In this document: positions 50,940 through 63,575 of the stretch, piece by piece
How positions within the stretch are numbered: the stretch's first letter is position 1
Layout of the letters: every line of letters starts with the position of its first letter
NCBI RefSeq assembly: GCF_014643835.1
Contig: NZ_BMKD01000006.1
Coordinates: 62,001 to 126,000 of the forward strand
Reading direction: 5' to 3'
Source: Mucilaginibacter rubeus
GTDB taxonomy: Bacteria > Bacteroidota > Bacteroidia > Sphingobacteriales > Sphingobacteriaceae
Length of the DNA: 64,000 nucleotides
Position numbers and translations under genes: made by a program
Notes under the pieces: generated by a model
The model's input: the letters and a program-made list of their open reading frames with translations, nothing else
Databases searched by the model: none
Told to the model about the DNA's origin: nothing

Positions 50940-50991
50940 ATATTTTGTTTTCTATTTAACAGATCGAATAGCGTTTAAAAATAGGTAAAAA

Positions 50992-51026
50992 AAAAGGATG
51001 GTTACTCTACACTCAACCGTCCTTTT
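50992..51026. terminator. Hairpin in the divergent region before the FixL-like gene
   Basis: AAAAGGATGGTT (50992-51003) pairs with AACCGTCCTTTT (51015-51026), with one G-U pair and an 11-nt loop, preceded by an A run. It looks like a terminator, yet sits between two divergent genes. It may insulate them. Confidence 0.5.
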
Positions 51027-51030
51027 ACTT

Positions 51031-51080
51031 TGCGCCTCACTATAAAAAGTGATTGTGATCACTTTTTATAGTGAGGCGCA
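51031..51080. repeat. Perfect 23-bp inverted repeat with 4-nt loop
   Basis: The left arm 51031-51053 (TGCGCCTCACTATAAAAAGT then GAT) is exactly complementary to 51058-51080, with loop TGTG. Its centre forms AGTGAT-TGTG-ATCACT, an Fnr/Crp-type palindrome. It lies 56 bp before the FixL-like ATG. As RNA or cruciform it would be very stable, so it may be both an operator and a structure. Confidence 0.85.
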
Positions 51081-51114
51081 TCATATTGAAGACTAAATTC
51101 ATTCGTGATCTTTG
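51050..51114 (+). promoter_or_regulatory. Predicted Fnr-type promoter of the FixL-like/receiver-Fnr operon
   Basis: TGAT-TGTG-ATCA (51050-51061) is centred at 51055.5. GATCTTTG (51107-51114), one base off TAnnTTTG, is centred at 51110.5, exactly 55 bp downstream. The same 55-bp distance occurs at the ldhA and cco promoters. Transcription would begin near 51121, favouring the ATG at 51136. Confidence 0.65.
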
Positions 51115-51135
51115 TCATTAAACAAGGAAACGCTG

Positions 51136-52323
51136 ATGGAGAATGCCGCGCTGCTAAAAGCAATTATTGAAAATGCCATAGACGGCATTATTACCATAAA
51201 CAGCCACGGAATTATCGAATCTATTAATCCGGCAGCATGTAATCTGTTTCAATACAGCCCCGGCGAAGTAATTGGTAAAAATGTATCTGTTTTAATGCCC
51301 CCGCCCGATAAAGATCTGCACGATGGTTATATAAACCGTTATCAAAACACGGGCAAGGCGCACATTATAGGTTTTGGCCGCGAAGTTAAGGGTTTAAAAA
51401 AAAATGGCTCCGTATTCCCTTTCCGCCTGGGAGTAAGTGAAGTGCAGCTTTCAGGCCGAAAAGTCTATACCGGTTTTATCCATGACCTCACACGCGAAAA
51501 GGAAGCAGAAGAAAGATTAAAGGAGTACGCCGTCCATTTAGAAGAGCTGGTGGAGGAGCGTACAATTTCTTTAAAGCACTCGGTAACCGAACTGCTGCAG
51601 GCTAAAGAAGAGGTTAGCCTGTCATTAGAGAAAGAAAAAGAACTTGGACAGATGAAAAGCCGTTTTGTATCAATGGCCTCGCATGAATTCAGGACCCCGT
51701 TGAGCAGTATCCAGTTATCGGCCATCCTTGTTGAAAAATATGCGCAGGAGTTTAGCAATCCTAACATCAGCAAACACATCGCCAAAATAAAAACATCAGT
51801 AGGTAACCTTACGGGTATCCTGAATGATTTCCTGTCGCTCGAAAAACTTGAAGCCGGTAAGGTCGAGCCTGTATTTACCGAATTTAACCTGGTAAAATTT
51901 GGTGAGGAAATAACAGAAGAAATGCAACTGGTAGCCAAACAAAACCAAAATATCATTTATCAGCATACAGGTACTACCAGTGTTTTTAGATTGGATCCGG
52001 CACTATTAAAAAACTGCATCATTAACCTGATCAGCAACGCCATCAAATACTCGGGCGAAAATACCTTTATTGAATTTAACACGGAGGTAGCCAGCGATCA
52101 GTTGGTTGTTGTGGTTAAGGATAATGGTATAGGCATCCCTGAAAGTGACCAGAAGCACTTGTTTGAAGCTTTTTTCAGGGCGCATAATACAGGCAATATA
52201 TCAGGTACAGGTCTCGGCCTTAATATAGTGGCGCGCTACGTTGGCCTGATCAACGGCACGGTGCAATTTGAAAGCAAAGTTAATTACGGAACATCATTCA
52301 CGCTCACATTTTCGCAATCATGA
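51136..52323 (+). CDS. FixL-like PAS heme oxygen-sensing histidine kinase
   Basis: The ATG at 51136 (after AAGGAA) gives 395 residues; a TTG at 51112 lies in the promoter. The protein is soluble with no membrane span. The PAS domain (about 5-125) matches the FixL heme pocket. His62 (HDGYINRYQNTG) and Arg82 (HIIGFGR) are 20 apart, as are the proximal His200 and distal Arg220 of Bradyrhizobium FixL. His76 and Ile77 match FixL His214 and Ile215. A coiled-coil linker (about 128-180) leads to HisKA (ASHEFRTPLSS) and an ATPase domain (NLISNAIKYS, DNGIGI, GTGLGLN). I infer oxygen-controlled kinase activity. It overlaps the next gene by 4 bp (ATGA). Confidence 0.88.
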   Translation: MENAALLKAIIENAIDGIITINSHGIIESINPAACNLFQYSPGEVIGKNVSVLMPPPDKDLHDGYINRYQNTGKAHIIGFGREVKGLKKNGSVFPFRLGVSEVQLSGRKVYTGFIHDLTREKEAEERLKEYAVHLEELVEERTISLKHSVTELLQAKEEVSLSLEKEKELGQMKSRFVSMASHEFRTPLSSIQLSAILVEKYAQEFSNPNISKHIAKIKTSVGNLTGILNDFLSLEKLEAGKVEPVFTEFNLVKFGEEITEEMQLVAKQNQNIIYQHTGTTSVFRLDPALLKNCIINLISNAIKYSGENTFIEFNTEVASDQLVVVVKDNGIGIPESDQKHLFEAFFRAHNTGNISGTGLGLNIVARYVGLINGTVQFESKVNYGTSFTLTFSQS

Positions 52324-53372
52324 AAAAAAGTATCCTCATTATTGAAGACAATACCGATATAAGAGAAAGCACCGCCGAAATACTGGAGCTTTCCGGCTAC
52401 CTGGTATTACAGGCCGGTAACGGTAAAATTGGTGTGGACTTAGCTATAAAGCATAAACCCGACCTTATTTTGTGCGATATCATGATGCCCGAACTTGACG
52501 GGTATGGCGTATTATTCATGCTCAGCAAATCGCCCGAAACGGATAATATACCCTTTATATTTTTAACCGCAAAAGCCGAAAGGGTTGACTTTAGAAAAGG
52601 CATGGAAATGGGTGCCGATGATTATCTTACCAAACCTTTTGACGATATAGAATTGCTTAATGCCATTGATAGCAGGTTGAGCAAAAAAGAAAAACAACAG
52701 GCATTTTTTAGCAGGTCGCTGCAAAAAATAGAGCACCTGGCCATCAATTCGCGCAACGGTGCTGCCGAGTTAACCGCACTGATAGCCAGTCGAAAAATAA
52801 GGCAGATAAGAAAAAAACAAGTATTATTTTACGACGGCGATAGCCCGCAGGGAATTTACCTGGTAATGGAAGGCAGCATAAAAACGTTTAAACTGGCCGA
52901 AGACGGCAGGGAACTGATGACCGGCTTATACAAAGCCGACGACTACCTTGGCGTACATGCCCTGCTGCTTGATGATGCTTATGGCGAAACTGCCGAAGCA
53001 ACCGAAGACGCGGCAATATGCCTGCTGCCGAAAGATACCGTTTTAACCATGCTTGACCGATATCCCGATGTTGGCCGGCAATTTTTGAAAATACTGTCAA
53101 ACAATATCAAAGAAAAGGAAGAACAGCTAATCGAGCTGGCCTACCATTCAGTAAGGAAACGGCTGGCGCAGGTATTGGTAAGGCTGAACAAGCAAAACGG
53201 TGAAAAACATGAATTTAAAATATCAAGGGAAGAAATGGCATCAATGGCCGGTATGGCTACCGAAACGGTAAGCCGTACGCTTTCCGATTTTAAAGAGGAA
53301 GGCCTGATAGAAAAGAAAGGTGCAACCATCAATATAACAGACCTCAACAAGCTCGTAAAAATGAGAAACTGA
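52320..53372 (+). CDS. Receiver domain fused to Crp/Fnr-type transcription regulator
   Basis: The 350-residue regulator joins three domains. A receiver (1-125) has IIEDN, Asp53 in LILCDIMMPELDG and the Lys of YLTKPFDD. A Crp-type effector beta-roll (about 145-260; VLFYDGDSPQGIYLVMEGSI) comes next. A Crp-type helix-turn-helix (about 295-345) has recognition helix ETVSRTL, in which Glu315, Ser318 and Arg319 match the E--SR set of Fnr that reads TTGAT half-sites. No Fnr cysteine cluster is present, so oxygen input must come by phosphorylation from the overlapping FixL-like kinase. It replaces the separate FixJ and FixK of rhizobia by one protein. Likely targets are the three promoters with TGAY-N4-RTCA boxes. 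Confidence 0.9.
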   Translation: MKKSILIIEDNTDIRESTAEILELSGYLVLQAGNGKIGVDLAIKHKPDLILCDIMMPELDGYGVLFMLSKSPETDNIPFIFLTAKAERVDFRKGMEMGADDYLTKPFDDIELLNAIDSRLSKKEKQQAFFSRSLQKIEHLAINSRNGAAELTALIASRKIRQIRKKQVLFYDGDSPQGIYLVMEGSIKTFKLAEDGRELMTGLYKADDYLGVHALLLDDAYGETAEATEDAAICLLPKDTVLTMLDRYPDVGRQFLKILSNNIKEKEEQLIELAYHSVRKRLAQVLVRLNKQNGEKHEFKISREEMASMAGMATETVSRTLSDFKEEGLIEKKGATINITDLNKLVKMRN

Positions 53373-53434
53373 CAAAGGTCATTTTTTTCACTGACCGCAC
53401 TCATGGTTTTGCCGGTGCCATCCGGGTAGTTTTG
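53370..53434 (+). promoter_or_regulatory. Predicted Fnr-type promoter of ldhA-hemN
   Basis: TGAC-AAAG-GTCA (53370-53381), overlapping the stop of the regulator gene, is centred 55 bp upstream of TAGTTTTG (53427-53434), a full -7 consensus. TTTG at 53408-53411 may serve as the -33 element. The box would sit near -62. Confidence 0.72.
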
Positions 53435-53454
53435 TTTAATATAAATGTGCACAG

Positions 53455-54492
53455 ATGAAAGTTGTAGCTTACAGTATCAAGGCGTTCGAAAAGGAATTTT
53501 TGGCCAGAGCGAACCAAAAAAAACATGATATTACCCTTATCTCTAACCCGCTAAATTCTGAAACCGCGGTTTATGCCGAAGGTAAGGAAGCGGTGGTTGT
53601 TTTTACCAATGACGATGTATCTGCCTATGTTATCAACCAACTGGCCGATCTTGGCGTTAAATATATTGCTACCCGTTCGGTTGGTACAGATCATATAGAT
53701 AAAGAAACAGCAGCTTTGCGCAACATAAAACTGGCCAATGTACCTGAATACTCGCCGCAGGCTATTGCCGAACATACCGTTGCCATGGCACTTGCCCTGA
53801 ACAGGCATTTAACCGAATCAAATGCCCATAGCCACCTGTTTGATTTCAGGCTGAATGGCCTCATGGGGTTTAATTTATCAGGCAAAACAGTTGGCATTAT
53901 TGGCCTGGGACATACCGGGCAGGCGGTTGCTGCTATCTTTAATGGCTTTGGCTGTCGTGTTATTGGCTATGATCCGATCGTCAAATCAAACTTGCCAGGA
54001 GTTGAACAAGTGTCTATGAATGACCTGCTTGCTACCGCCGATATCATTTCATTACATGCCCCCCTCAGCCCTGAAAACTACCATATGATCAATAATGACA
54101 CCCTTGCTTTGATGAAAGATGGAGTCATGCTCCTGAATACTTCGCGGGGAGGGTTAATTGATACTGAAGCGGCATTACAGGCCCTTGAAATCGGCAAAAT
54201 AGGCTATTTAGGACTCGACGTTTATGAAAAAGAAAAAGGCCTCTTTTTTGAGCAGCATCAACATGATACCGATAAGGACCCATTGCTTGAAAAACTGATG
54301 ACCTTTAAAAATGTCCTCATCACCCCCCATCAGGCTTTTTTAACCAGTGAGGCATTACAGCAAATTGCTAATCAAACCATAAAAAATCTTGATCAGTGGC
54401 AGGCTAAAAAGTGCGTTGGAAATGCGTGTGTGTGTGCAAAAAACTGCAAAGCGACCGGTGAGCTATCAACGGTTGATACTACCAAAGCTTAA
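53455..54492 (+). CDS. ldhA: D-lactate dehydrogenase (2-hydroxyacid dehydrogenase) with Cys-rich tail
   Basis: The 345-residue cytoplasmic enzyme reduces pyruvate to D-lactate with NADH. Features are the catalytic-domain core with YIATRSVGTDHID, the NAD-binding Rossmann motif GIIGLGHTGQA (about 147-158) and the substrate Arg in LLNTSRGGLID. The Glu of LGLDVYEKE and the His in ITPHQAFLT complete the active site. An unusual C-terminal tail (about 316-345) holds CVGNACVCAKNC (Cys320, 325, 327, 331), absent from ordinary LdhA, which could bind a metal or sense redox. Its promoter carries the Fnr-type box, and hemN follows by 5 bp, fitting a low-oxygen regulon. Confidence 0.9.
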   Translation: MKVVAYSIKAFEKEFLARANQKKHDITLISNPLNSETAVYAEGKEAVVVFTNDDVSAYVINQLADLGVKYIATRSVGTDHIDKETAALRNIKLANVPEYSPQAIAEHTVAMALALNRHLTESNAHSHLFDFRLNGLMGFNLSGKTVGIIGLGHTGQAVAAIFNGFGCRVIGYDPIVKSNLPGVEQVSMNDLLATADIISLHAPLSPENYHMINNDTLALMKDGVMLLNTSRGGLIDTEAALQALEIGKIGYLGLDVYEKEKGLFFEQHQHDTDKDPLLEKLMTFKNVLITPHQAFLTSEALQQIANQTIKNLDQWQAKKCVGNACVCAKNCKATGELSTVDTTKA

Positions 54493-54497
54493 TATTT

Positions 54498-55865
54498 ATG
54501 AAAATCCCTCAGCACCTTATTGATAAATACAACGTTGCTGCTCCCCGTTATACCAGTTACCCTACGGTACCTTATTGGAACACTGAAAACTTCGACGAAG
54601 AGGAATGGCGAAAGTCAGTATCGCTTTCTTTTAAGGAAAGTAACGATCGTGACGGGATCAGCCTGTATATTCACCTTCCATTTTGCGAAAGCCTGTGTAC
54701 CTATTGCGGTTGTAACACCCGCATCACCAAAAACCACCGGGTAGAAGAGCCATACATTAAAGCTGTTTTGATGGAATGGGCTATGTACCTCAATACCTTT
54801 GAAAGCAAACCCGTCATCAGGGAAATACACCTTGGGGGCGGCACACCTACATTTTTTAAACCCGAACACCTGGCCATACTGATCAATGGTATATTAAATT
54901 CATCAACTATCCACCCCCGGGCCGAGTTTAGCTTTGAGGCGCACCCCGCTAACACAACTGTTGATCATTTACAGGTTTTATACAATCTTGGTTTCAGGAG
55001 GATAAGCCTCGGCATTCAGGATTTTGATCCCAGGGTTCAGTTTATCATTAACCGGATCCAGAGTTTTGAACTGGTAAAACTGGTTACCCAGCAGGCACGA
55101 CGGATCGGGTACACATCCGTTAACTTCGATCTGATATATGGCCTCCCGCTTCAAACCATCAACGGGCTAAAGGATACCATTGCCCAGGTGGCGAAATTAA
55201 TGCCCGATAGGATCGCTTTTTACAGTTATGCCCATGTACCCTGGATAAAACCCGGCCAGCGCCGTTTTACCGAAAATGACCTGCCCGATGCCAATGAAAA
55301 AAGGGCTTTGTATGAATGCGGACGCGAATTATTTACAGCATTGGGTTATCATGAAATTGGTATGGACCATTTCGCCTTGCCAACGGATAGCCTTTACTTA
55401 GCTGAACAAAATGGTACGCTGCACCGTAATTTCATGGGTTACACCCATCAATATACCCAATTAATGATTGGTTTGGGCGTATCCTCCATAAGCGATAGCT
55501 GGTATGCCTTTGCCCAAAATGTAAAAAAAGTAGAGGAATACCTGCAATTAGTAAATGCCGGCCAGCTACCGGTATTTAAAGGACATATGCTTACGGCCGA
55601 TGATCTGAGCATTCGCAGGCATATTTTGAATATCATGTGTAACGGCAAAACCTGCTGGAACCTGCACACTGAAGCAAGTGAAGCTTTTTTAGAAGGACTG
55701 GAGCGCATGCGCCAATTTGAACAGGACGGACTGGCTGAGCTAAATTCATGGTGTATTACTGTTACCCCCATGGGTAAACGCTTTTTACGCAACATATGTA
55801 TGGCGCTTGATGCCCGCCTATGGGCCGACAAGCCCGCCACGCAGTTATTCAGCATGACGGGATAA
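54498..55865 (+). CDS. hemN: Oxygen-independent coproporphyrinogen III oxidase (radical SAM)
   Basis: The 455-residue enzyme converts coproporphyrinogen III to protoporphyrinogen IX without oxygen. The radical-SAM motif is HLPFCESLCTYCGCN with Cys63, Cys67 and Cys70, plus Cys72 as in HemN proper. The N-terminal YTSYPTVPYW, IHLGGGTPTFF and the C-terminal HemN domain (about 370-450, IRRHILNIMCNGKT) are all present, giving full HemN length rather than the shorter HemW type. It supplies heme for the cbb3 oxidase encoded convergently and is co-transcribed with ldhA. Confidence 0.95.
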   Translation: MKIPQHLIDKYNVAAPRYTSYPTVPYWNTENFDEEEWRKSVSLSFKESNDRDGISLYIHLPFCESLCTYCGCNTRITKNHRVEEPYIKAVLMEWAMYLNTFESKPVIREIHLGGGTPTFFKPEHLAILINGILNSSTIHPRAEFSFEAHPANTTVDHLQVLYNLGFRRISLGIQDFDPRVQFIINRIQSFELVKLVTQQARRIGYTSVNFDLIYGLPLQTINGLKDTIAQVAKLMPDRIAFYSYAHVPWIKPGQRRFTENDLPDANEKRALYECGRELFTALGYHEIGMDHFALPTDSLYLAEQNGTLHRNFMGYTHQYTQLMIGLGVSSISDSWYAFAQNVKKVEEYLQLVNAGQLPVFKGHMLTADDLSIRRHILNIMCNGKTCWNLHTEASEAFLEGLERMRQFEQDGLAELNSWCITVTPMGKRFLRNICMALDARLWADKPATQLFSMTG

Positions 55866-55892
55866 GGCTTTGACCAACACCAATTATCAGTT

Positions 55893-55931
55893 AAACAAAG
55901 AAACCGGGAATCGATCCCGGTTTCTTTGTTT
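55893..55931. terminator. Bidirectional terminator between hemN and the cco-linked unknown gene
   Basis: A 17-bp perfect stem (AAACAAAGAAACCGGGA at 55893-55909 with its complement at 55915-55931) has a 5-nt loop and A/T tails on both sides. It serves both converging operons. Confidence 0.92.
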
Positions 55932-57706
55932 TAGATATTTAGCAATTGCAGTTTCTCTTCTGATGAGAGCAGATCCTTCAGCATCCGCTCCAGGTAATCC
56001 TGGGTTTGGTTGCTTATTTGTGGGATCAATTCTTTATAGTATGTGATACCCTGCTGTAATTGGTCTTTAAATTTGATCAGGTATTTTCCTTTCTTTTCGT
56101 TGAGGTTTGCTACATAGCCCGAAATGTCCTTTTTCAGGTAATCGATATAAAGGTTTAACTCATTGATAAACATGTTAGGGCGGGTTGCTGCCTCAAGCAG
56201 GTTGAAGCGCCCATAAATGTGGCCAACCATATCATCAAGCGTATACACTCCCGAAAAGAAGGCGATATTCGGTCCAGGACAAATGGTTACCGCCTTGTTT
56301 TCCCGGGCTTTCAGGATATCGTTTTTGATATAAGCGGATGCACAGAGCCCTTCGCATAAGCAAACCTTTTCGGTAACAGCATCTATTTGCTTTTGAATTT
56401 CAGCTGCCGGAAGCTCACTGTGTTTTAGCTGCTTTATTTTCAAATGCTGGTACTCACGTGATGCTGTGCAAATGGGATGTTCGGTAAACTCGGTATTTGA
56501 TACTAAATATTTTTTATTGCAGGGACTGCCCGGCCTGCCATTTGCTATCCTGCTAAGTCTTTGCTCTTCGCCCGAGCTTTTGCTGAAGTTATTGAACAGG
56601 ATACCCAGCGGCGATGACGAGCTTACATAAAAATCATCATGGCCGGCGCCTGCCAATTGTTGTAGCGTATGTTCATCAACGTTGGTGGCTTCGGGTACCA
56701 GCAGGAACGGACTGCCCCAACCGGTAGCATCCATCTGATAATGCTCCCGCAAAAAAACATCTTCCTGCATAGTGCCTATCCCACCTTGTACGCTGATCTT
56801 TTGCGCCGGGTTGGTCTCTGTAAAACCCCTTTCGGCAAGTGCCGGTTGATAAAGGGCAAGCAGTTCGTGCATCATGTGTTCCCGTTTCAGTTTAAACTCT
56901 TCCAGGATCGGCCCGAGCAGCAGGCCATCAGTAGCAAAAGCATGCCCGCCGCAATTCAGGCCCGATTCAATTCTGAATTCTGATACCCACAGCCCCTTCT
57001 TTGCTAAAAACTTTGCCTGGATCAGCGCCGAACGAAAATCGCTCACCTTTAAAACGATCCGTTTACGGAGCTCGTTATTGCCGTCAGGATAAAAACACTT
57101 AAAAGTTTCCAGGTAACTGTACAGCCTCGGGTTCATTCCCGCCGAAAGTACTACTGATGAATTCAGCTCGCTCTCAGCAAAGCCTTTTAAAGCAGCAAGG
57201 GCGTCGGTATGGGTATCGCCGGTATAATTGCCGTCCGCATCAAAGTTCATTTTATCAACTTTGGCCATGATATTTACATCAATAGCGCCTTTGTTCATTC
57301 TGGCGCGCAAAAGATCTTGAAAGATCTGTTTACGTTCCCCCTCAGGATACTCGTTCATCAGTTCGTAACCCTGCTTTAAAGGCGAAGCCTCCGGTAGCAG
57401 GTTAAAGTAACGGTCGATGTCCATTCCCTGGTTAAATGGCATTTGTTTAAGTTCTTCAAACTGCTTATTTACCAGCTCGTTTAATAAATTAAGATAGGCC
57501 ATAATCCGTTTTGAACGGCTGTCGGGCCCATTTTTTAAAATAGGCGTAAATGGCAAACCATTTTGAGTTGAGTGATACTGCCGCATACGCTCAACGAGTT
57601 CATCATCAACAATTGAAACAACGGACGAGATACCGTACCGGGCCACTTTTAGCGGTGTATCAACAGAGTATCCCAAACCTAAAACAGGTATATGAAAGCT
57701 GTGCAT
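55931..57706 (-). CDS. Conserved-looking 591-residue protein of unknown function, possible TIM-barrel flavoprotein
   Basis: I do not recognise a named family. The protein has no signal peptide or membrane span. The N-terminus FHIPVLGLGYSVDTPLKVA, then GLNCGGHAFATDG (about 265) and VQGGIGTMQED (about 320) recall the glycine-rich loops of nitronate-monooxygenase or IMP-dehydrogenase-like TIM barrels. Later come Cys residues in GSPCNKKY, HPICTAS, VCLCEGLCAS and ITICPGP, which could bind a metal cluster. The end is helical. It is the last gene of the cco operon, 62 bp after the TauE/SafE-like gene and convergent with hemN, so a job in low-oxygen metabolism, heme or oxidase assembly, or detoxification is possible. 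Confidence 0.75.
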   Translation of the reverse strand: MHSFHIPVLGLGYSVDTPLKVARYGISSVVSIVDDELVERMRQYHSTQNGLPFTPILKNGPDSRSKRIMAYLNLLNELVNKQFEELKQMPFNQGMDIDRYFNLLPEASPLKQGYELMNEYPEGERKQIFQDLLRARMNKGAIDVNIMAKVDKMNFDADGNYTGDTHTDALAALKGFAESELNSSVVLSAGMNPRLYSYLETFKCFYPDGNNELRKRIVLKVSDFRSALIQAKFLAKKGLWVSEFRIESGLNCGGHAFATDGLLLGPILEEFKLKREHMMHELLALYQPALAERGFTETNPAQKISVQGGIGTMQEDVFLREHYQMDATGWGSPFLLVPEATNVDEHTLQQLAGAGHDDFYVSSSSPLGILFNNFSKSSGEEQRLSRIANGRPGSPCNKKYLVSNTEFTEHPICTASREYQHLKIKQLKHSELPAAEIQKQIDAVTEKVCLCEGLCASAYIKNDILKARENKAVTICPGPNIAFFSGVYTLDDMVGHIYGRFNLLEAATRPNMFINELNLYIDYLKKDISGYVANLNEKKGKYLIKFKDQLQQGITYYKELIPQISNQTQDYLERMLKDLLSSEEKLQLLNI

Positions 57707-57768
57707 ATAATTAATTTAATATTATGTATTTAGAATAAACCAGGAGGCTCATCAATGTACCTCCGGTG

Positions 57769-58455
57769 TTACTTACAAATAACAGTTCCGCTGGCCGATG
57801 GCGGACTCAGATAAGGAATATCAAGCGCGAGCCCACGTAATAAAAACCAGGCGCCAAGGCATAGCATAAAATAGGGAACCACCCTGTTCATCTTTCTTCG
57901 GACGCCCTGGTTAACAAATCCACTGCCAACAGTGACCGCCAGCATTAAAGGCAGGGTACCTAAACCAAACCAAACCATATATTGCACGGAAGCACCCACT
58001 GATGAAGTGTTTACCGCACCGATGAGCGCCAGGTAAACAAAACCGCAGGGTAAAAAGCCATTCAGCAAGCCTATGGCTAAATGGCCGGCCCGATGCTGTA
58101 ACGCATAAGTAAGCAACGCATTAAAAGGCTTCAGCAGCCAGTTACCAGTACTTTTGTTACTAATTTTCAACTTCCACAATCTTGAACCGGCCGCCAGCAG
58201 GATCAGTATCCCGCTAATGATGCTTACCCCCTGCTGCAAACCTGAAAGCCATAATTGCTTACCGATGAGCCCGGTTATTAACCCGAGGGTTGCGTAACTT
58301 ATAGTACGCCCAAGGTTATATACCAACTTATCCCACAAGAGCAGCCAAAAGCTACTGTGGTTAATGGGGATAGCGAAGGCGAGCGGGCCGCACATTCCTA
58401 TACAGTGAACACTACCGAATAAGCCTATAAAAAAAGCGATTTGACTGGGGCTCAT
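57769..58455 (-). CDS. TauE/SafE-like (CcdA/DsbD-related) membrane protein of the cbb3 operon
   Basis: The ATG at 58455 overlaps the ccoH stop as ATGA and gives 228 residues; a longer form from 58506 would run into ccoH. About six membrane spans are visible. The first carries GLFGSVHCIGMCGPLAFA with two Cys separated by three residues, and LLNGFLPCGFVYLAL carries another, a pattern typical of the UreH/DsbD-like membrane family in Bacteroidota cco operons. It is thought to carry metal or reductant for oxidase maturation; the precise role is not established. The position after ccoH supports an assembly function. Confidence 0.82.
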   Translation of the reverse strand: MSPSQIAFFIGLFGSVHCIGMCGPLAFAIPINHSSFWLLLWDKLVYNLGRTISYATLGLITGLIGKQLWLSGLQQGVSIISGILILLAAGSRLWKLKISNKSTGNWLLKPFNALLTYALQHRAGHLAIGLLNGFLPCGFVYLALIGAVNTSSVGASVQYMVWFGLGTLPLMLAVTVGSGFVNQGVRRKMNRVVPYFMLCLGAWFLLRGLALDIPYLSPPSASGTVICK

Positions 58456-58883
58456 GGTATAAATATTTCTTTGGTATACAGGTATTTTTTGCCGTTGTTT
58501 TCCCAATTAAAAACCAGTTGCCACCTACCTGGCTTTACATCAGTCAGAGGGATATTCACATTCCCCGCCAGGTTGCTCTGCAGATTGATATGTTTGTCCA
58601 TTTTGCCGTCGTCCGGGCGCTTTAAATCTACTGCTCCCTTTACCGGGCCTGCAAACTTTACTAAAAGGATATTGTTATTAATGCTGATTGATGGCTGTGC
58701 TTTATCGTTAAGCACTTGCTTCTCTTTATCATAATCGGCATTAAACGCAAGCCCTTTTTCGTAATAATGCGAATCGACATCGTCGGGCTGCCTGAACATG
58801 GCAACGCCCATGGCTACAATGTAACTCATAAAAGCCAGCATGCCTATTACTATTCCTTTTCCCCAGTTCATATGCTTAATCAT
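58452..58883 (-). CDS. ccoH: CcoH/FixH cbb3 oxidase assembly protein
   Basis: The 143-residue protein has one N-terminal membrane span (GIVIGMLAFMSYIVAMGVAMF) followed by the FixH hallmark DSHYYEKGLAFNADYDKE and a periplasmic beta-domain (LVKFAGPVKGAVDL, RWQLVFNWENNGKKY). CcoH stays bound to the cbb3 oxidase and is needed for its stability. The ATG at 58883 overlaps the ccoG end by 8 bp; an ATG at 58871 is the alternative start. Confidence 0.88.
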   Translation of the reverse strand: MIKHMNWGKGIVIGMLAFMSYIVAMGVAMFRQPDDVDSHYYEKGLAFNADYDKEKQVLNDKAQPSISINNNILLVKFAGPVKGAVDLKRPDDGKMDKHINLQSNLAGNVNIPLTDVKPGRWQLVFNWENNGKKYLYTKEIFIP

Positions 58884-60249
58884 TTGTGGGTGCTATAAAA
58901 TTTGTTTTAACAGATTGAACCACCTTGCCGCCAAGCAACAGGTTCAGTTTAATGGTAGTTTTGGCGGCATGTATTTTTGATGCAGGGAGCATGACAAAAA
59001 ACACCGTTTTAGCCGATCCGCCCTTTGCAACCGGTCCGGGCGCCTGGATATAACTGATCTTAACAGCCGGATCATCCGCCCCTATCCTGATCGCTCTATC
59101 CTGATTGGTTTTATTAATGATTTCGGCATTATAAATATTACTGATGTAGCCGCCTGGCTGTTGCTGATAAAGCATTCCCGCACTGCGCATAACGGTGATA
59201 TCCATATCGCTCCGGCTGAAAATAAAATAACCAAGTACAGCTACCAGCACGGTTATTACCGCGGTATATCCCATCATGCGCCCGGTAAACGAGGGCTTTT
59301 CTTTCAGCCTGATCATATTTTCGGAGAAGTAACCAATCAGGTTGCGGGGCTTTCCTATCTTGTCCATTACCTGGTCGCAGGCATCTATGCAGGCGGTACA
59401 GTTGATACATTCAATTTGAGTTCCTTTACGAATATCAATACCTGTAGGACAAACAGCAACGCACAGGCTGCAATCAACGCAATCGCCTTTCAGGTTAAAG
59501 GGGTCCGCGTTACGGCTTAACTTGCCCCGTGGTTCGCCACGCACATCGTCATAAGCTACTACTAAAGTGTGCTCATCAATCAATACACTTTGTAAACGCC
59601 CGTAAGGGCATATCAATGTGCAAACCAACTCACGTACCTGACTGTAAATCAAATAAAATACAATGGTGAATACCCATATACTGATAAAACCAACCCAGTG
59701 GGCTGTAACAGGCTCAACAATAATTTTAACAAGGCTTTCGCTGCCGATGATATAAGCAAGGAAAGTGTTGGCGATCAGAAAGGAGACCAATACAAACAAA
59801 GCATGCTTGGCTGTTTTTTTGATAATTTTTTCCCGTGTCCAGGCACCGGCGTCAAGCTTTTTACGCTTATTGGCATCCCCTTCTATCCAAATCTCTATCT
59901 TTCTGAAAACCATTTCCATAAATATGGTTTGAGGGCAAATCCAACCGCAGAAAATACGACCGAAAGCAATAGTAAATATTACCACGCAAACCAAAAAAAC
60001 AAGTGAAGCCAGCATAAACAGAAAAATATCCTGCGGCCAAAACACCTGCCCCAGCAGTACAAATTGCCGGTCTATCACATTGAGCAGCAACAATGGCTGG
60101 CCATTGATTCGTAAAAACGGCCCTAAAAAAAAGAAAACGAGATAAAAATAACTTAACCAGCTTCTCCATTTATAAAACCTGCCTTTACGTACAAGCGGAT
60201 ACATCCACTGCCTTTTCCCGTTTTCTTTTGCCGCCAGTAAACCGTCCAT
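58876..60249 (-). CDS. ccoG: CcoG/FixG, cbb3 oxidase accessory iron-sulfur membrane protein
   Basis: The 457-residue inner-membrane protein has about five spans (WLSYFYLVFFFLGPFLRI and others). Cys-bearing segments are CGWICPQTIFMEMVF and CTLICPYGRLQSVL, and a double ferredoxin motif follows (CVDCSLCVAVCPTGIDI and CINCTACIDACDQVM). A C-terminal Ig-like domain (IgFixG) follows the last span. It is thought to reduce copper for delivery to the CcoN active site. It begins 5 bp after ccoP. Confidence 0.94.
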   Translation of the reverse strand: MDGLLAAKENGKRQWMYPLVRKGRFYKWRSWLSYFYLVFFFLGPFLRINGQPLLLLNVIDRQFVLLGQVFWPQDIFLFMLASLVFLVCVVIFTIAFGRIFCGWICPQTIFMEMVFRKIEIWIEGDANKRKKLDAGAWTREKIIKKTAKHALFVLVSFLIANTFLAYIIGSESLVKIIVEPVTAHWVGFISIWVFTIVFYLIYSQVRELVCTLICPYGRLQSVLIDEHTLVVAYDDVRGEPRGKLSRNADPFNLKGDCVDCSLCVAVCPTGIDIRKGTQIECINCTACIDACDQVMDKIGKPRNLIGYFSENMIRLKEKPSFTGRMMGYTAVITVLVAVLGYFIFSRSDMDITVMRSAGMLYQQQPGGYISNIYNAEIINKTNQDRAIRIGADDPAVKISYIQAPGPVAKGGSAKTVFFVMLPASKIHAAKTTIKLNLLLGGKVVQSVKTNFIAPTND

Positions 60250-60254
60250 AATCG

Positions 60255-61163
60255 TTATATTTTTGCTATCGTTTTGCCTTTTGCCGCAACGTCATCTGCA
60301 TCTTTTTCGCCCTGCGGTTCTTTAGGATTGGCCGGATTGCTGCCATGCAATGATTTTATATAGTTTGCCACATCCGAGATTTGCTTGGGCGATAACTGTT
60401 TCTCCCAATTGGGCATCCCTTTGGCCTGTACGCCGTATTTTATGGTTTTAAATACATCATTGATCTTACCGCCGTGCAGCCAGTAATCATCGGTAAGGTT
60501 AGGGCCAACTACCCCTTGCGCGTGATCGCCATGACAAGGAACGCAGCTTTGTTTAAAAACCGCCTGCCCTGAGGCCAGTACAGCCTGATCGGTAACGAGT
60601 TTAACTGTGGTTTCGTCAACCCGGTTAGCGGCCTTGCTCAGGTATTCTTTTTTGGCAATGTCTGCCTGGGCCATCTCCGTTTTATATTCATCATATTGCA
60701 ACTGCCCAACACCAAATACATGATAAATGAGTATGTAACCAATTGCAAAAATAATGGTGATATAAAACAGGTAGCTGAACCAGCCTGGAATAGGATTATT
60801 AAGCTCCTGAATACCGTCATAATCATGTGCTATGATCAGCTCCTTTTCTTCAGACATCGGTCTTAGCGACAGTAATTTGTTCCAAACCTCCGTTTTAGGC
60901 TTTTTAACTTTTTTGGCGGGTTTCATCTCCGCTATGATCTGCTCTTCTGTATACCCCTGCGCCCGGAGCGTTATTTTTGTCAATACCCTAAGCGCCCTGA
61001 GCAACACCAGCATTGCTACAATAAACAATGCCAGCATGGCTATAATTGCTCCATACCCTATCTCGTTCATCAAATCGCCCGGTATCAGGCTGTCATCGGC
61101 GGCCATTGCCGGATGTAACGGTATCATCAATACAAGTAAAATTAACAGGCGGCGGTATTTCAT
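60255..61163 (-). CDS. ccoP: CcoP, cytochrome c subunit of cbb3 oxidase (single heme motif)
   Basis: The 302-residue protein has an N-terminal hydrophobic signal-like segment and a span at about 35-58. A CcoP N-terminal span region (NPIPGWFSYLFYITIIFAIGYI, about 125-145) follows, then one cytochrome c domain with Cys207, Cys210 and His211 in SCVPCHG and a candidate Met ligand in AKGMPNW. Proteobacterial CcoP has two hemes; only one CxxCH is seen here, and the N-terminal part is extended instead. It transfers electrons to CcoNO. It overlaps ccoQ by 4 bp. Confidence 0.92.
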   Translation of the reverse strand: MKYRRLLILLVLMIPLHPAMAADDSLIPGDLMNEIGYGAIIAMLALFIVAMLVLLRALRVLTKITLRAQGYTEEQIIAEMKPAKKVKKPKTEVWNKLLSLRPMSEEKELIIAHDYDGIQELNNPIPGWFSYLFYITIIFAIGYILIYHVFGVGQLQYDEYKTEMAQADIAKKEYLSKAANRVDETTVKLVTDQAVLASGQAVFKQSCVPCHGDHAQGVVGPNLTDDYWLHGGKINDVFKTIKYGVQAKGMPNWEKQLSPKQISDVANYIKSLHGSNPANPKEPQGEKDADDVAAKGKTIAKI

Positions 61164-61351
61164 AAGTTGTAAGAATTAAGGGATTCACCATGACTATCCT
61201 TCAAAGGCAGATTACGCATATGGTCTACATGCTGTTTCCTGAGCCTGAAAAGCAGGATAGCTACTACAATAAAAAATACGAGGAAGATCCCCAGAGAAAA
61301 TAACAGGTAACCCTGGGCACCCGAAATGTGTTCTGTAAATTGCTTAAACAT
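61160..61351 (-). CDS. ccoQ: CcoQ-like small subunit of cbb3 oxidase
   Basis: The 63-residue protein has one membrane span (YLLFSLGIFLVFFIVVAILLF) followed by a basic segment (RLRKQH), matching CcoQ in size and place between ccoNO and ccoP. It starts 8 bp after ccoNO and its stop overlaps the ccoP start as ATGA. CcoQ proteins stabilise the oxidase. Identification rests mainly on position and topology. Confidence 0.8.
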   Translation of the reverse strand: MFKQFTEHISGAQGYLLFSLGIFLVFFIVVAILLFRLRKQHVDHMRNLPLKDSHGESLNSYNL

Positions 61352-61359
61352 TGCTTTTG

Positions 61360-63486
61360 TTATTTAGCGGCGGTTTTGCTTGCTTTGATATCGGTACCCA
61401 AACGTTGCAGGTAAGCTATCAAGGCTACTATTTCTTTATTGTTTTTAACCTTTATATGATCGTTATACAGGTTATCGGCAATTTCTTTTTCCTGTTTACT
61501 AAGATCGTTGTTGGCTATTTTTTCATATCCTTCGGGATATGGGACGCCCAGTGTGCGCATGGCCTTTATTTTGGCGGCTGTGGTAGCCGTATCAAGATTT
61601 TGGGTTAACAGCCAATCATAATTTGGCATAATACTCCCCGGCGACATGAGGCGCGGGTCCATCAGGTGGTTATAGTGCCAGGCATTACCATATTTGCCGC
61701 CCTCGCGTGCCAGGTCGGGCCCGGTACGTTTTGATCCCCATAAAAACGGGTGATCATAAACAAATTCACCAGCCTTGCTGTATTCGCCATAGCGCTCGGT
61801 TTCTGAGCGGAAAGGCCTTACCGTTTGTGAGTGGCAGTTTGAGCAGCCCTCTCTGATATAAAGGTCACGTCCCTGCAACTCAAGTGGAGTATAAGGTTTT
61901 ACCGCTGCTATAGTTGGGATATTTGATGATATAGTTAGCGTTGGCATCAACTCAATAAAAGTACCTACCAGTATAACCAGCAATGCGGCTATCATCATTT
62001 GTATTGGGCGGCGTTCCAATACCCGGTGCCATGTTTCTTCATGCCCGGTTGTGCTTAAAGCGGGCAACGGCATAGCCTGGGCAGGCTCATTTGCAACGAG
62101 TTTGCCCTGCAGCGCGGTGCGGCAAAGGTTATAAGCCATTACAATAACACCCAGCAGGTATAATCCACCGCCTACAGAACGCATAACGTGCATAGGCAAT
62201 ATGCGCATGGTGGTTTCCAAAAATGCCGGATATTTCAGAATTCCTTCGGGTGTAAACTCTTTAAGCATTAAACCCTGGGTAAAACCGGCCCAATACATTG
62301 GCACGGCGTAAAACAGGATCCCGAGCGTGCCTATCCAAAAATGGAACGAGGCCATCTTCTTTGAATATAACTGCGTTTTATAAATACGCGGAATAAGCCA
62401 GTAAAGGATGGCAAAGGTTAAAAAGCCGTTCCAGCCCAAAGCGCCAACGTGTACGTGAGCAATTATCCAATCGGTAAAGTGGCCTATGGCGTTCACCTGT
62501 TTCAATGAAAGCATAGGACCTTCAAACGTGGCCATACCGTAAGCAGTTAAGCCAACTACCATAAACTTCAGGATCACATCATCGCGAACTTTATCCCAGG
62601 CCCCTCGCAAGGTGAGCAAGCCATTGATCATGCCGCCCCAGCTTGGTGCTAACAGCATAATAGAAAAGGCCACACCTAATGACTGCGCCCAACCGGGTAG
62701 CGTAGTGTATAGTAAATGGTGCGGGCCGGCCCAGATATATATAAAAATGAGCGCCCAAAAGTGCAGAATACTTAATTTATAGGAATAGATAGGCCTGTTG
62801 GCCATTTTGGGCAAAAAGTAATACATCATGCCCAGGTATGGGGTGGTCAGGAAAAATGCCACCGCATTGTGGCCATACCACCATTGTACCAATGCATCCT
62901 GTACGCCGGCATATACCATGTAGCTTTTAAAGGCTGATACCGGCAGTTCAAATGAATTTACAATGTGCAATACGGCTATGGTGACAAAGGTGGCTATGTA
63001 AAACCATATGGCCACATATAAATGCCGTTCGCGGCGTTTAAATATGGTACCAAACATATTAATGCCGAACACAACCCAGATAAGGGTAATGGCAATATCT
63101 ATTGGCCATTCAAGTTCGGCATATTCATGCGAGGTGGTTAAACCTAAGGGCAACGTAATAACAGCCGAAACAATGATGAGCTGCCAGCCCCAAAAGTGAA
63201 TTTGACTAAGAGCATCGCTAAACATCCGCGCTTTTAACAGCCGCTGTAATGAATAGTAAACACCCATAAAAATAGCGTTACCCACAAAAGCGAAGATCAC
63301 CGCATTGGTGTGTAAGGGCCTGATGCGGCCAAATGTAGTGTATTGGTTGCCCATGTTCATCCCCGGGCTATACAATTGTATGGCTACGATGAGGCCTACG
63401 GTCATCCCAATTATACCCCAGATCACCGTGGCGATACCAAAATTCCGGACGATCTTGTTGTCATAGTAAAAATTTTCGGGCTGCAT
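61360..63486 (-). CDS. ccoNO: CcoNO, fused catalytic and cytochrome c subunits of cbb3 oxidase
   Basis: The 708-residue fusion joins CcoN and CcoO, the usual form in Bacteroidota. CcoN (about 1-480) has twelve or so spans with the metal-ligand regions TFGRIRPLHTNAVIF, VQWWYGHNAVAFFLT, WAGPHHLLYT and HVHVGALGWNG. CcoO (about 500-708) has one span (MMIAALLVILVGTFIEL) and a heme-c motif with Cys548, Cys551 and His552 (GCSNCHSQTVRPF), followed by RTGPDLAREGGKYGNAWH. The enzyme reduces oxygen at very low concentration and pumps protons. An Fnr-type promoter lies just upstream at 63511-63575. Confidence 0.96.
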   Translation of the reverse strand: MQPENFYYDNKIVRNFGIATVIWGIIGMTVGLIVAIQLYSPGMNMGNQYTTFGRIRPLHTNAVIFAFVGNAIFMGVYYSLQRLLKARMFSDALSQIHFWGWQLIIVSAVITLPLGLTTSHEYAELEWPIDIAITLIWVVFGINMFGTIFKRRERHLYVAIWFYIATFVTIAVLHIVNSFELPVSAFKSYMVYAGVQDALVQWWYGHNAVAFFLTTPYLGMMYYFLPKMANRPIYSYKLSILHFWALIFIYIWAGPHHLLYTTLPGWAQSLGVAFSIMLLAPSWGGMINGLLTLRGAWDKVRDDVILKFMVVGLTAYGMATFEGPMLSLKQVNAIGHFTDWIIAHVHVGALGWNGFLTFAILYWLIPRIYKTQLYSKKMASFHFWIGTLGILFYAVPMYWAGFTQGLMLKEFTPEGILKYPAFLETTMRILPMHVMRSVGGGLYLLGVIVMAYNLCRTALQGKLVANEPAQAMPLPALSTTGHEETWHRVLERRPIQMMIAALLVILVGTFIELMPTLTISSNIPTIAAVKPYTPLELQGRDLYIREGCSNCHSQTVRPFRSETERYGEYSKAGEFVYDHPFLWGSKRTGPDLAREGGKYGNAWHYNHLMDPRLMSPGSIMPNYDWLLTQNLDTATTAAKIKAMRTLGVPYPEGYEKIANNDLSKQEKEIADNLYNDHIKVKNNKEIVALIAYLQRLGTDIKASKTAAK

Positions 63487-63510
63487 ATGATATTAAATAA
63501 TTTAATGGTG

Positions 63511-63575
63511 TAAAAGTATTGAGAGGCTGCCGCCGACAGAATGATGACGGTTTGCCTGAATAATGACATTGGTCA
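63511..63575 (-). promoter_or_regulatory. Predicted Fnr-type promoter of ccoNO
   Basis: On the minus strand TGAC-CAAT-GTCA (63575-63564; flanks extend it to ATGAC/GTCAT) is centred at 63569.5 and overlaps the ccoS stop. TACTTTTA (63518-63511), seven of eight -7 positions, is centred at 63514.5, again 55 bp away. It allows ccoNOQPGH expression separate from ccoIS. Confidence 0.65.

Follow-up and report, generated by a model that had tools for sequence, protein, structure and literature searches.

The window analysed here is a stretch of 64,000 nucleotides from Mucilaginibacter rubeus (contig NZ_BMKD01000006.1, positions 62,001 to 126,000 of the forward strand). Three of its promoters are the subject of this work; they precede an operon for a FixL-like sensor kinase and a response regulator with a receiver fused to an Fnr-like protein (receiver-Fnr), the ldhA-hemN pair and ccoNO, respectively (Table 1). 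A sequence-only reading had reported three TGAY-N4-RTCA palindromes (box 1), each 55 bp from a -7-like element. All of its coordinates and distances were correct, and the neighbouring genes were as it had named them, according to Pfam and NCBIfam models. Two of the three -7 elements in the window deviate from TAnnTTTG.

Table 1. Promoter elements and genes of the low-oxygen region (positions in the window)
Feature	Position	Strand	Remark
Kinase-regulator operon box 1, TGATTGTGATCA	51050..51061	+	centre 51055.5; -63.5 from inferred start
Kinase-regulator operon box 2, TGAGGCGCATCA	51072..51083	+	22 bp 3' of box 1; centre -41.5
Kinase-regulator -7-like element, GATCTTTG	51107..51114	+	GATATTTG in many relatives; inferred start ~51119
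Third TGAY-N4-RTCA, overlapping the kinase-promoter -7	51106..51117	+	pattern scan
Perfect 23-bp inverted repeat, 4-nt loop, around kinase box 1	51031..51080	.	outer arms imperfect in G001
ldhA-hemN box 1, TGACAAAGGTCA	53370..53381	+	first TGA is the regulator stop codon
ldhA-hemN box 2, TGACCGCACTCA	53392..53403	+	centre -41.5
ldhA-hemN -7 element, TAGTTTTG	53427..53434	+	inferred start ~53439
ccoNO box 1, TGACCAATGTCA	63564..63575	-	pattern and ortholog comparison
ccoNO box 2, AAACCGTCATCA	63542..63553	-	left half degenerate, NAAY in ccoN set
ccoNO -7 element, TACTTTTA	63511..63518	-	inferred start ~63506
FixL-like PAS-HisKA-HATPase sensor kinase	51136..52323	+	PAS from residue 6
Receiver + cNMP-binding-like + HTH_Crp_2 response regulator (receiver-Fnr)	52320..53372	+	Pfam
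D-2-hydroxyacid (lactate) dehydrogenase, ldhA-like	53455..54492	+	domain/family models
hemN, oxygen-independent coproporphyrinogen III oxidase	54498..55865	+	434.6 bits, cut-off 324.95
Conserved 591-aa protein	55931..57706	-	family-model searches without match
ccoG, downstream of ccoNO	58876-60249	.	family model
ccoP-like	60255-61163	.	named from position and reading only
ccoNO fusion, cbb3 oxidase subunits I/II	61360..63486	-	family model

Spacing, second box and promoter position

The ortholog set consisted of 80 named loci and 20 loci from further relatives, centred on regulator orthologues, and the gene cluster was largely syntenic across it. The nearest sampled relative (G001) was 96% identical to the window over this region (regulator 99%), while the closest named loci were from Mucilaginibacter, with regulators 81% and 78% identical. 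Counts of upstream boxes included the window itself, and loci with short upstream sequence were excluded. The strict -7 pattern TAnnTTTR was sought in the last 160 bp, and kinase promoters were scored with the looser NAnnTTTG. An offset of 57, start to start from box to -7, corresponds to 55 bp centre to centre.

A box was present within 300 bp upstream of ldhA at 80/80 loci, of ccoN at 37/38 and of the kinase at 69/89. The offset was 57 at 57/80 ldhA loci (56 at 5, 58 at 7) and at 35/38 ccoN loci (58 at 2), with every other offset seen at no more than 3 loci in these two sets. At the kinase it was 57 at 32/89 loci, 58 at 12 and 56 at 6, the next best reaching 4. For column statistics, rows were selected solely by their fit to box 1 and -7 (62 ldhA, 35 ccoN and 32 kinase rows; 44, 24 and 19 after dereplication). 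In the dereplicated rows, identity between box 2 (the second palindrome, below) and the -7 was 0.28 for ldhA, 0.31 for ccoN and 0.30 for the kinase, equal to random. Because the spacing is repeated before ldhA and ccoN orthologues although the intervening DNA is randomised, these alignments indicate that it is not due to chance, as the sequence-only reading had argued.

Single genomes gave a weaker signal. TGAY-N4-RTCA alone is not rare in the window, with 8 matches against a shuffle mean of 2.83 (8 was reached in 1/100 shuffles). A scan of G001 for the box with TAnnTTTR at gaps of 35-55 yielded 31 matches against 20 in the reversed control; 6/31 were at the exact gap that the sequence-only reading had proposed for such a scan, and the next commonest gap had 4. 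The excess is modest and was therefore not used as proof.

Promoter logos of all three families revealed a second palindrome (box 2) exactly 22 bp 3' of box 1, with the forms TGAC-N4-CTCA at ldhA, NAAY-N4-RTCA at ccoN and TGAA-N4-ATTA at the kinase. Box 2 played no part in the selection of the rows, and its half-sites were 0.92, 0.89 and 0.70 identical at ldhA, ccoN and the kinase, respectively (dereplicated rows), versus 0.27-0.28 for its N4 at ldhA and ccoN. A pattern of box 1, the TCA of box 2 and TAnnTTTR was found in 47/60 relatives (148 matches, reversed control 0). Outside the genus there were 40 matches, all of them retained, and 30 carried TGA at +22, which the pattern had not asked for; in 101 strings examined TGA stood at +22 in 53 and at each of the other offsets between 12 and 30 in at most 4. 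An alternative pattern, with a strict box 2 and only the TGA of box 1, matched in 30/60 genomes with one reversed-control match, and revealed promoters with a single box at -41.5. In G042, G020 and G120, divergent promoters share both boxes, with a -7 on either side.

The TAnnTTTG box lies at -12 to -5 in the transcription start map of Flavobacterium psychrophilum (PMC9723704), and class II sites are centred at -41.5 (PMC4886647). With the -7 register borrowed from that map, the centre of box 1 therefore falls at -63.5 and that of box 2 at -41.5, and all such positions rest on inferred starts. Box 2 and the -7 are 33 bp apart, centre to centre. Sigma-A promoters of Bacteroidota possess a -33 element, unlike those described here, in which the -33 TTG is nearly missing (TTG near -33 in only 5/129 promoters). 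Given the inferred start, box 2 sits at the class II position. A class I promoter would have its sole activator site at -61.5, whereas here the upstream site centres at -63.5 and is joined by a second one. By this comparison the window promoters pair a class II site with a further site upstream and do not hold a lone class I site; the sequence-only reading, which had put box 1 near -62 as a class I site, had missed box 2. The interpretation as a single class I site was dropped once the logos had revealed it.

The breadth of the layout was examined at ccoNO across the class, with ~420 bp upstream of 31 loci from 25 families and a -7 allowed looser than TAnnTTTR. These were 31 of the 34 ccoN matches listed; G079 was scanned with family f26, and two partial matches of G058 were excluded (they begin at residue 51, and no box was found in the preceding 400 bp). 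A box with a -7 at 56-58 was found at 27/31 loci (24 at 57) in 21/25 families, while shuffled sequences averaged 0.035 and never exceeded 2 of 31. Box 2 stood at +22 as TGA-N6-TCA in 18 of the 27 positive loci, and at least its right-half TCA in 23. When the four negative loci were re-examined further upstream, G224 had a two-box promoter at -462, G237 and G102 had a single box at about -41.5, and G234 had neither. In a phylum sample of 148 genomes, the strict two-box pattern matched 17/37 genomes of the same class and 2/111 of other classes. On these alignments the layout is real, old and wider than first claimed.

Family f26 departs from it. The strict two-box pattern matched 1/14 of its genomes, although ccoN is present in 13/14. 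All 13 ccoN promoters (L273-L285) instead carry a single strict box before the -7, at offset 35 (12) or 36 (1), that is at -41.5, with a shuffle mean of 0.005, and a box at 56-58 was found in 0/13. They form a natural one-site counterpart of the two-site promoter in the window. At 10/38 loci the 591-aa gene is likewise preceded by a promoter of its own, in which a single box lies near -41.5 (offset 34-35); the other 28 comprise 1 two-box layout, 14 with a box lacking a -7 at the tested offsets and 13 without a box. Since the f26 ccoN and 591-aa-gene promoters hold a single box there, -41.5 is conserved more widely than the upstream position, and "class I" therefore fits only the upstream half of the window promoters. 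Across 25 relatives the 591-aa protein keeps 57-70% identity, many invariant residues and the stretch CLCEGLC; it has no match in Pfam or NCBIfam, and the only other matches, to apolipoprotein A-I, were weak.

Some further features concern the DNA around the boxes. The perfect 23-bp inverted repeat in Table 1 has box 1 of the kinase promoter at its tip. The outer arms of the repeat look newly made symmetric, because the inner arms alone are common to G001 and the similarity to G001 breaks at 51026. A terminator-like inverted repeat, AAGGATGGTT..AACCGTCCTT, was seen by eye at 50990-51030 between divergent genes, and may be left over from an operon that once lay upstream. The regulator stop codon doubles as the first half-site of the operator of the next gene at 77/80 loci, and where it overlaps the ldhA operator the protein mostly ends in ..MKN*.

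The kinase, the regulator and candidate targets

The PAS domain of the kinase, which is presumably cytosolic, best matched FixL structures (chains 8js5 and 1dp6), with HD, R, HIIG and GR aligned, so that both the haem-ligand His and the distal Arg of a FixL-type PAS are in place. Strict H-x5-R-x7-H-x5-R was found in 59/90 kinases and the proximal His in 87/90, the latter by reading the alignment. The corresponding residues of FixL are H200, R206, H214 and R220. The score against the NCBIfam equivalog for rhizobial FixL was 161.8 bits, below its cut-off of 850; by sequence the kinase resembles FixL and is not classed as rhizobial FixL. Two Dyadobacter kinases (L037 and L039) have QD in place of the haem-ligand HD, and oxygen sensing may be lost or changed in them.

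The E--SR recognition helix that the sequence-only reading had noted in the regulator (E315--S318 R319) was invariant in 19/19 aligned regulators and, together with PF00027 and PF13545, places the protein in the Crp/Fnr superfamily. Receiver residues E9, D10, D53, T83 and K105 were also invariant in 19/19, as in a response regulator. The only invariant cysteines among the 19 regulators were C52 and C234, so a conserved iron-sulfur cysteine cluster is absent, and with 96.3 bits against a cut-off of 228 for the Fnr model the protein is not an Fnr proper. FixJ has a LuxR-type output domain, unlike the window regulator, whose Pfam matches include HTH_Crp_2 as output and no LuxR HTH. A second kinase/receiver-Fnr pair lies in G001 at C1:2243269-2245496 (regulator 61% identical), and several relatives list two such regulators. 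G001 also encodes, at C1:2233050-2233745, a 231-aa Crp/Fnr protein whose N-terminus is rich in cysteine (CDNQTCLLCKGC), possibly an Fnr of the iron-sulfur type.

A regulon scan of G001 with up to 2 mismatches yielded 32 matches against 12 in the reversed control. The candidate targets were ccoI, ccoNO, ldhA-hemN, kinase-regulator, a PTPS-type protein, universal stress proteins (Usp), alcohol dehydrogenases, OmpW, an AI-2E transporter, a P-type ATPase region and a pyridoxamine oxidase-like protein; the 2-mismatch sites probably include several false ones. The same 22/57 geometry was seen with a variant tandem box, ..ATCAA-TTTC-TTCTTATC-N4-ATCAATG or close to it, in G001 (C1:2197340 and C1:3605670) and G051 (C3:386584, 389122 and 389884). 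Both G001 sites adjoin small Crp paralogues, and the variant boxes beside such paralogues may belong to other regulators.

Proposed mechanism and alternatives

We consider it likely that the FixL-type kinase acts through receiver-Fnr, which would bind both sites and activate the cco genes, ldhA-hemN and its own operon. The promoters would then be built of a strong palindrome (A-tract, TGAY-N4-RTCA, T-tract) centred at -63.5, a weaker copy at -41.5 about two helical turns 3' on the same DNA face, and a -7 element after box 2 with no -33 element. At low oxygen, the FixL-type haem-PAS kinase would phosphorylate the co-encoded receiver-Fnr, two dimers of which would bind side by side. The dimer at -63.5 would serve as an anchor, and that at -41.5, in the class II position, would recruit RNA polymerase, substituting for the -33 contact. 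As a result the cbb3 oxidase, ccoI, ldhA-hemN and the regulator operon would be switched on, and a box at the start site would limit the regulator operon in some relatives. The sequences, their spacing and conservation and the gene content are observed; from these we infer haem binding, phosphorylation, DNA binding, activation, the transcription starts and the identity of the Fnr-type protein that binds.

Several observations weigh against this mechanism. No box was found within 300 bp of the kinase gene at 20/89 loci, including 4/4 of Dyadobacter and 5/6 of Chryseobacterium/Epilithonimonas/Flavobacterium. The first half-site and A-tract of the ldhA promoter also encode the last codons of the regulator. 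The -63.5 position misses the usual class I register by 2 bp, and in f26 the -63.5 box is missing from 13/13 ccoN promoters with or without receiver-Fnr, so two boxes are not always needed. By the distribution of the sequences, moreover, the regulator is not tied one-to-one to the promoter layout. Among the 31 class genomes scanned, 26 have receiver-Fnr (23 show the ccoN layout, the other 3 that or a single -41.5 box), and yet 4 of the 5 without it (G216, G039, G207 and G041) keep the ccoN layout. In the phylum sample, strict matches occurred in 13/23 genomes of the same class with receiver-Fnr and in 4/14 without, with no clear difference.

A rival account has a plain Fnr/Crp protein as the main reader, with receiver-Fnr a mere neighbour or a regulator of few targets. 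The four genomes that keep the ccoN layout without receiver-Fnr list plain Fnr-like proteins. In f26, 7/13 ccoN genomes have receiver-Fnr and 6/13 have the -41.5 box without it, and the single-box layout is identical in both, which strengthens the -41.5 site and weakens a one-to-one link with receiver-Fnr; plain Fnr-like genes lie a few kb from ccoN in several of these genomes. In G001, several sites cluster near a plain Fnr gene at 403 kb. In the genus sample (37 genomes), G006 has a plain Fnr, no receiver-Fnr and still 3 promoter matches. Against this, all 24 genus genomes with receiver-Fnr and without a close plain Fnr (defined by 50% or higher identity to its G001 counterpart) had at least one match each, although two of the 24, G019 and G013, have a completeness of just 61% and 83%, whereas G022, G029 and G036, with neither protein, had none. 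That pattern is partly co-inheritance of the cco cluster, which is absent from the latter three, and co-occurrence was rejected as proof of one reader on account of this confounding. Sites also occur at the regulator's own operon and at its next gene. A plain Fnr as the main reader is unlikely, but it is the alternative that keeps most weight. The proposal that receiver-Fnr reads the sites is supported in part: by inference it looks sufficient in the genus, and it is a good candidate regulator, but plain Fnr proteins very probably act at these sites too.

The boxes might alternatively be repressor sites, or the regulator might repress in air and be relieved at low oxygen. In 14 of 47 fitting kinase promoters, chosen with a -7 pattern widened for this family, an additional box begins 8 bp beyond the -7 start, with its centre just past the inferred start of transcription; the window and G001 instead have one that overlaps the -7. 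Self-repression of the kinase-regulator operon by the start-site box is a natural guess. As a general account, however, repression is improbable, since a site at -41.5 without a -33 element is an activator position and the targets are low-oxygen genes.

Action of the -63.5 box alone as a class I site, with box 2 a chance or decayed copy, is very improbable. In its favour, box 2 is degenerate in a gene-specific way (CTCA, AAAC, ATTA), and the class I idea of the sequence-only reading requires box 1 alone. Against it, the box 2 halves are conserved far above their N4, the TGA at +22 recurs in 30/40 matches outside the genus, and the -41.5 site stands alone in 13/13 f26 ccoN promoters and at 10/38 591-aa-gene loci. 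Chance or sequence relatedness alone, despite the common boxes and deviating -7 elements of the window, is already refuted by the spacer identity, the ccoNO and shuffle counts and the reversed pattern (0/60 genomes).

Related systems and significance

In Alphaproteobacteria, FixL-FixJ controls fixK, which encodes a Crp/Fnr protein without an iron-sulfur cluster, and cco and hem genes are among the targets of this cascade (PMC4999443). The system described here is similar in its FixL-type kinase, its Crp/Fnr protein without such a conserved cluster and its candidate cco and hem targets. In the alphaproteobacterial cascade FixJ activates fixK as a second step, whereas in the window a single protein joins the receiver to the Fnr-like part and the cascade would therefore be one step. 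E. coli FNR recognizes a TTGAT-N4-ATCAA core at -41.5 in class II and -61.5 in class I promoters, and ompW is a target (PMC4886647). The core type, the class II site and the candidate target OmpW are shared. The promoters here differ in having two sites 22 bp apart, an upstream site at -63.5 instead of -61.5, a Bacteroidota -7, an outer T that is not the common base, and a regulator without a conserved iron-sulfur cysteine cluster. The layout fits FNR/FixK-type control in a tandem geometry, probably driven by a FixL-type kinase via a receiver fusion.

Cur/BT4338 is a member of the Crp family. It is a global regulator of Bacteroides and of the same regulator class, and its consensus wwwTATGTTnTAnAACATAwww is unrelated to TGAY-N4-RTCA (PMC11501099). 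The -7 of the promoters here is the TAnnTTTG box of Bacteroidota sigma-A promoters; F. psychrophilum strongly induces cbb3 oxidase and raises haem enzymes at oxygen limitation, and the words Crp and Fnr are absent from the main text of that paper (PMC9723704). No account of this promoter design was found in the open-access literature, surveyed mostly at listing level, and how Bacteroidia sense falling oxygen and induce cbb3 oxidase seems little described.

A generalization to Bacteroidia is offered tentatively, with clearly less assurance than the mechanism for the window. Low-oxygen promoters of this class may have as their core a single class II site of Fnr type, at -41.5, that stands in for the -33 contact, and to it most sampled ccoN promoters outside f26 add a stronger dimer site exactly 22 bp upstream. 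Such a fixed two-dimer complex would accept different Fnr-type proteins. In most sampled ccoNO genomes its driver may be phosphorylation by a FixL-like haem kinase that acts via receiver-Fnr, a one-step form of FixL-FixJ-FixK with its own start-site brake in some species. The occurrence of the layout at ccoNO in 21/25 sampled families provides a rule for predicting low-oxygen regulons, the one-site promoters of f26 and the two-site promoters of the same gene give a clean natural comparison, and the layout allows a one-step FixL-to-FixK route to be tested directly.

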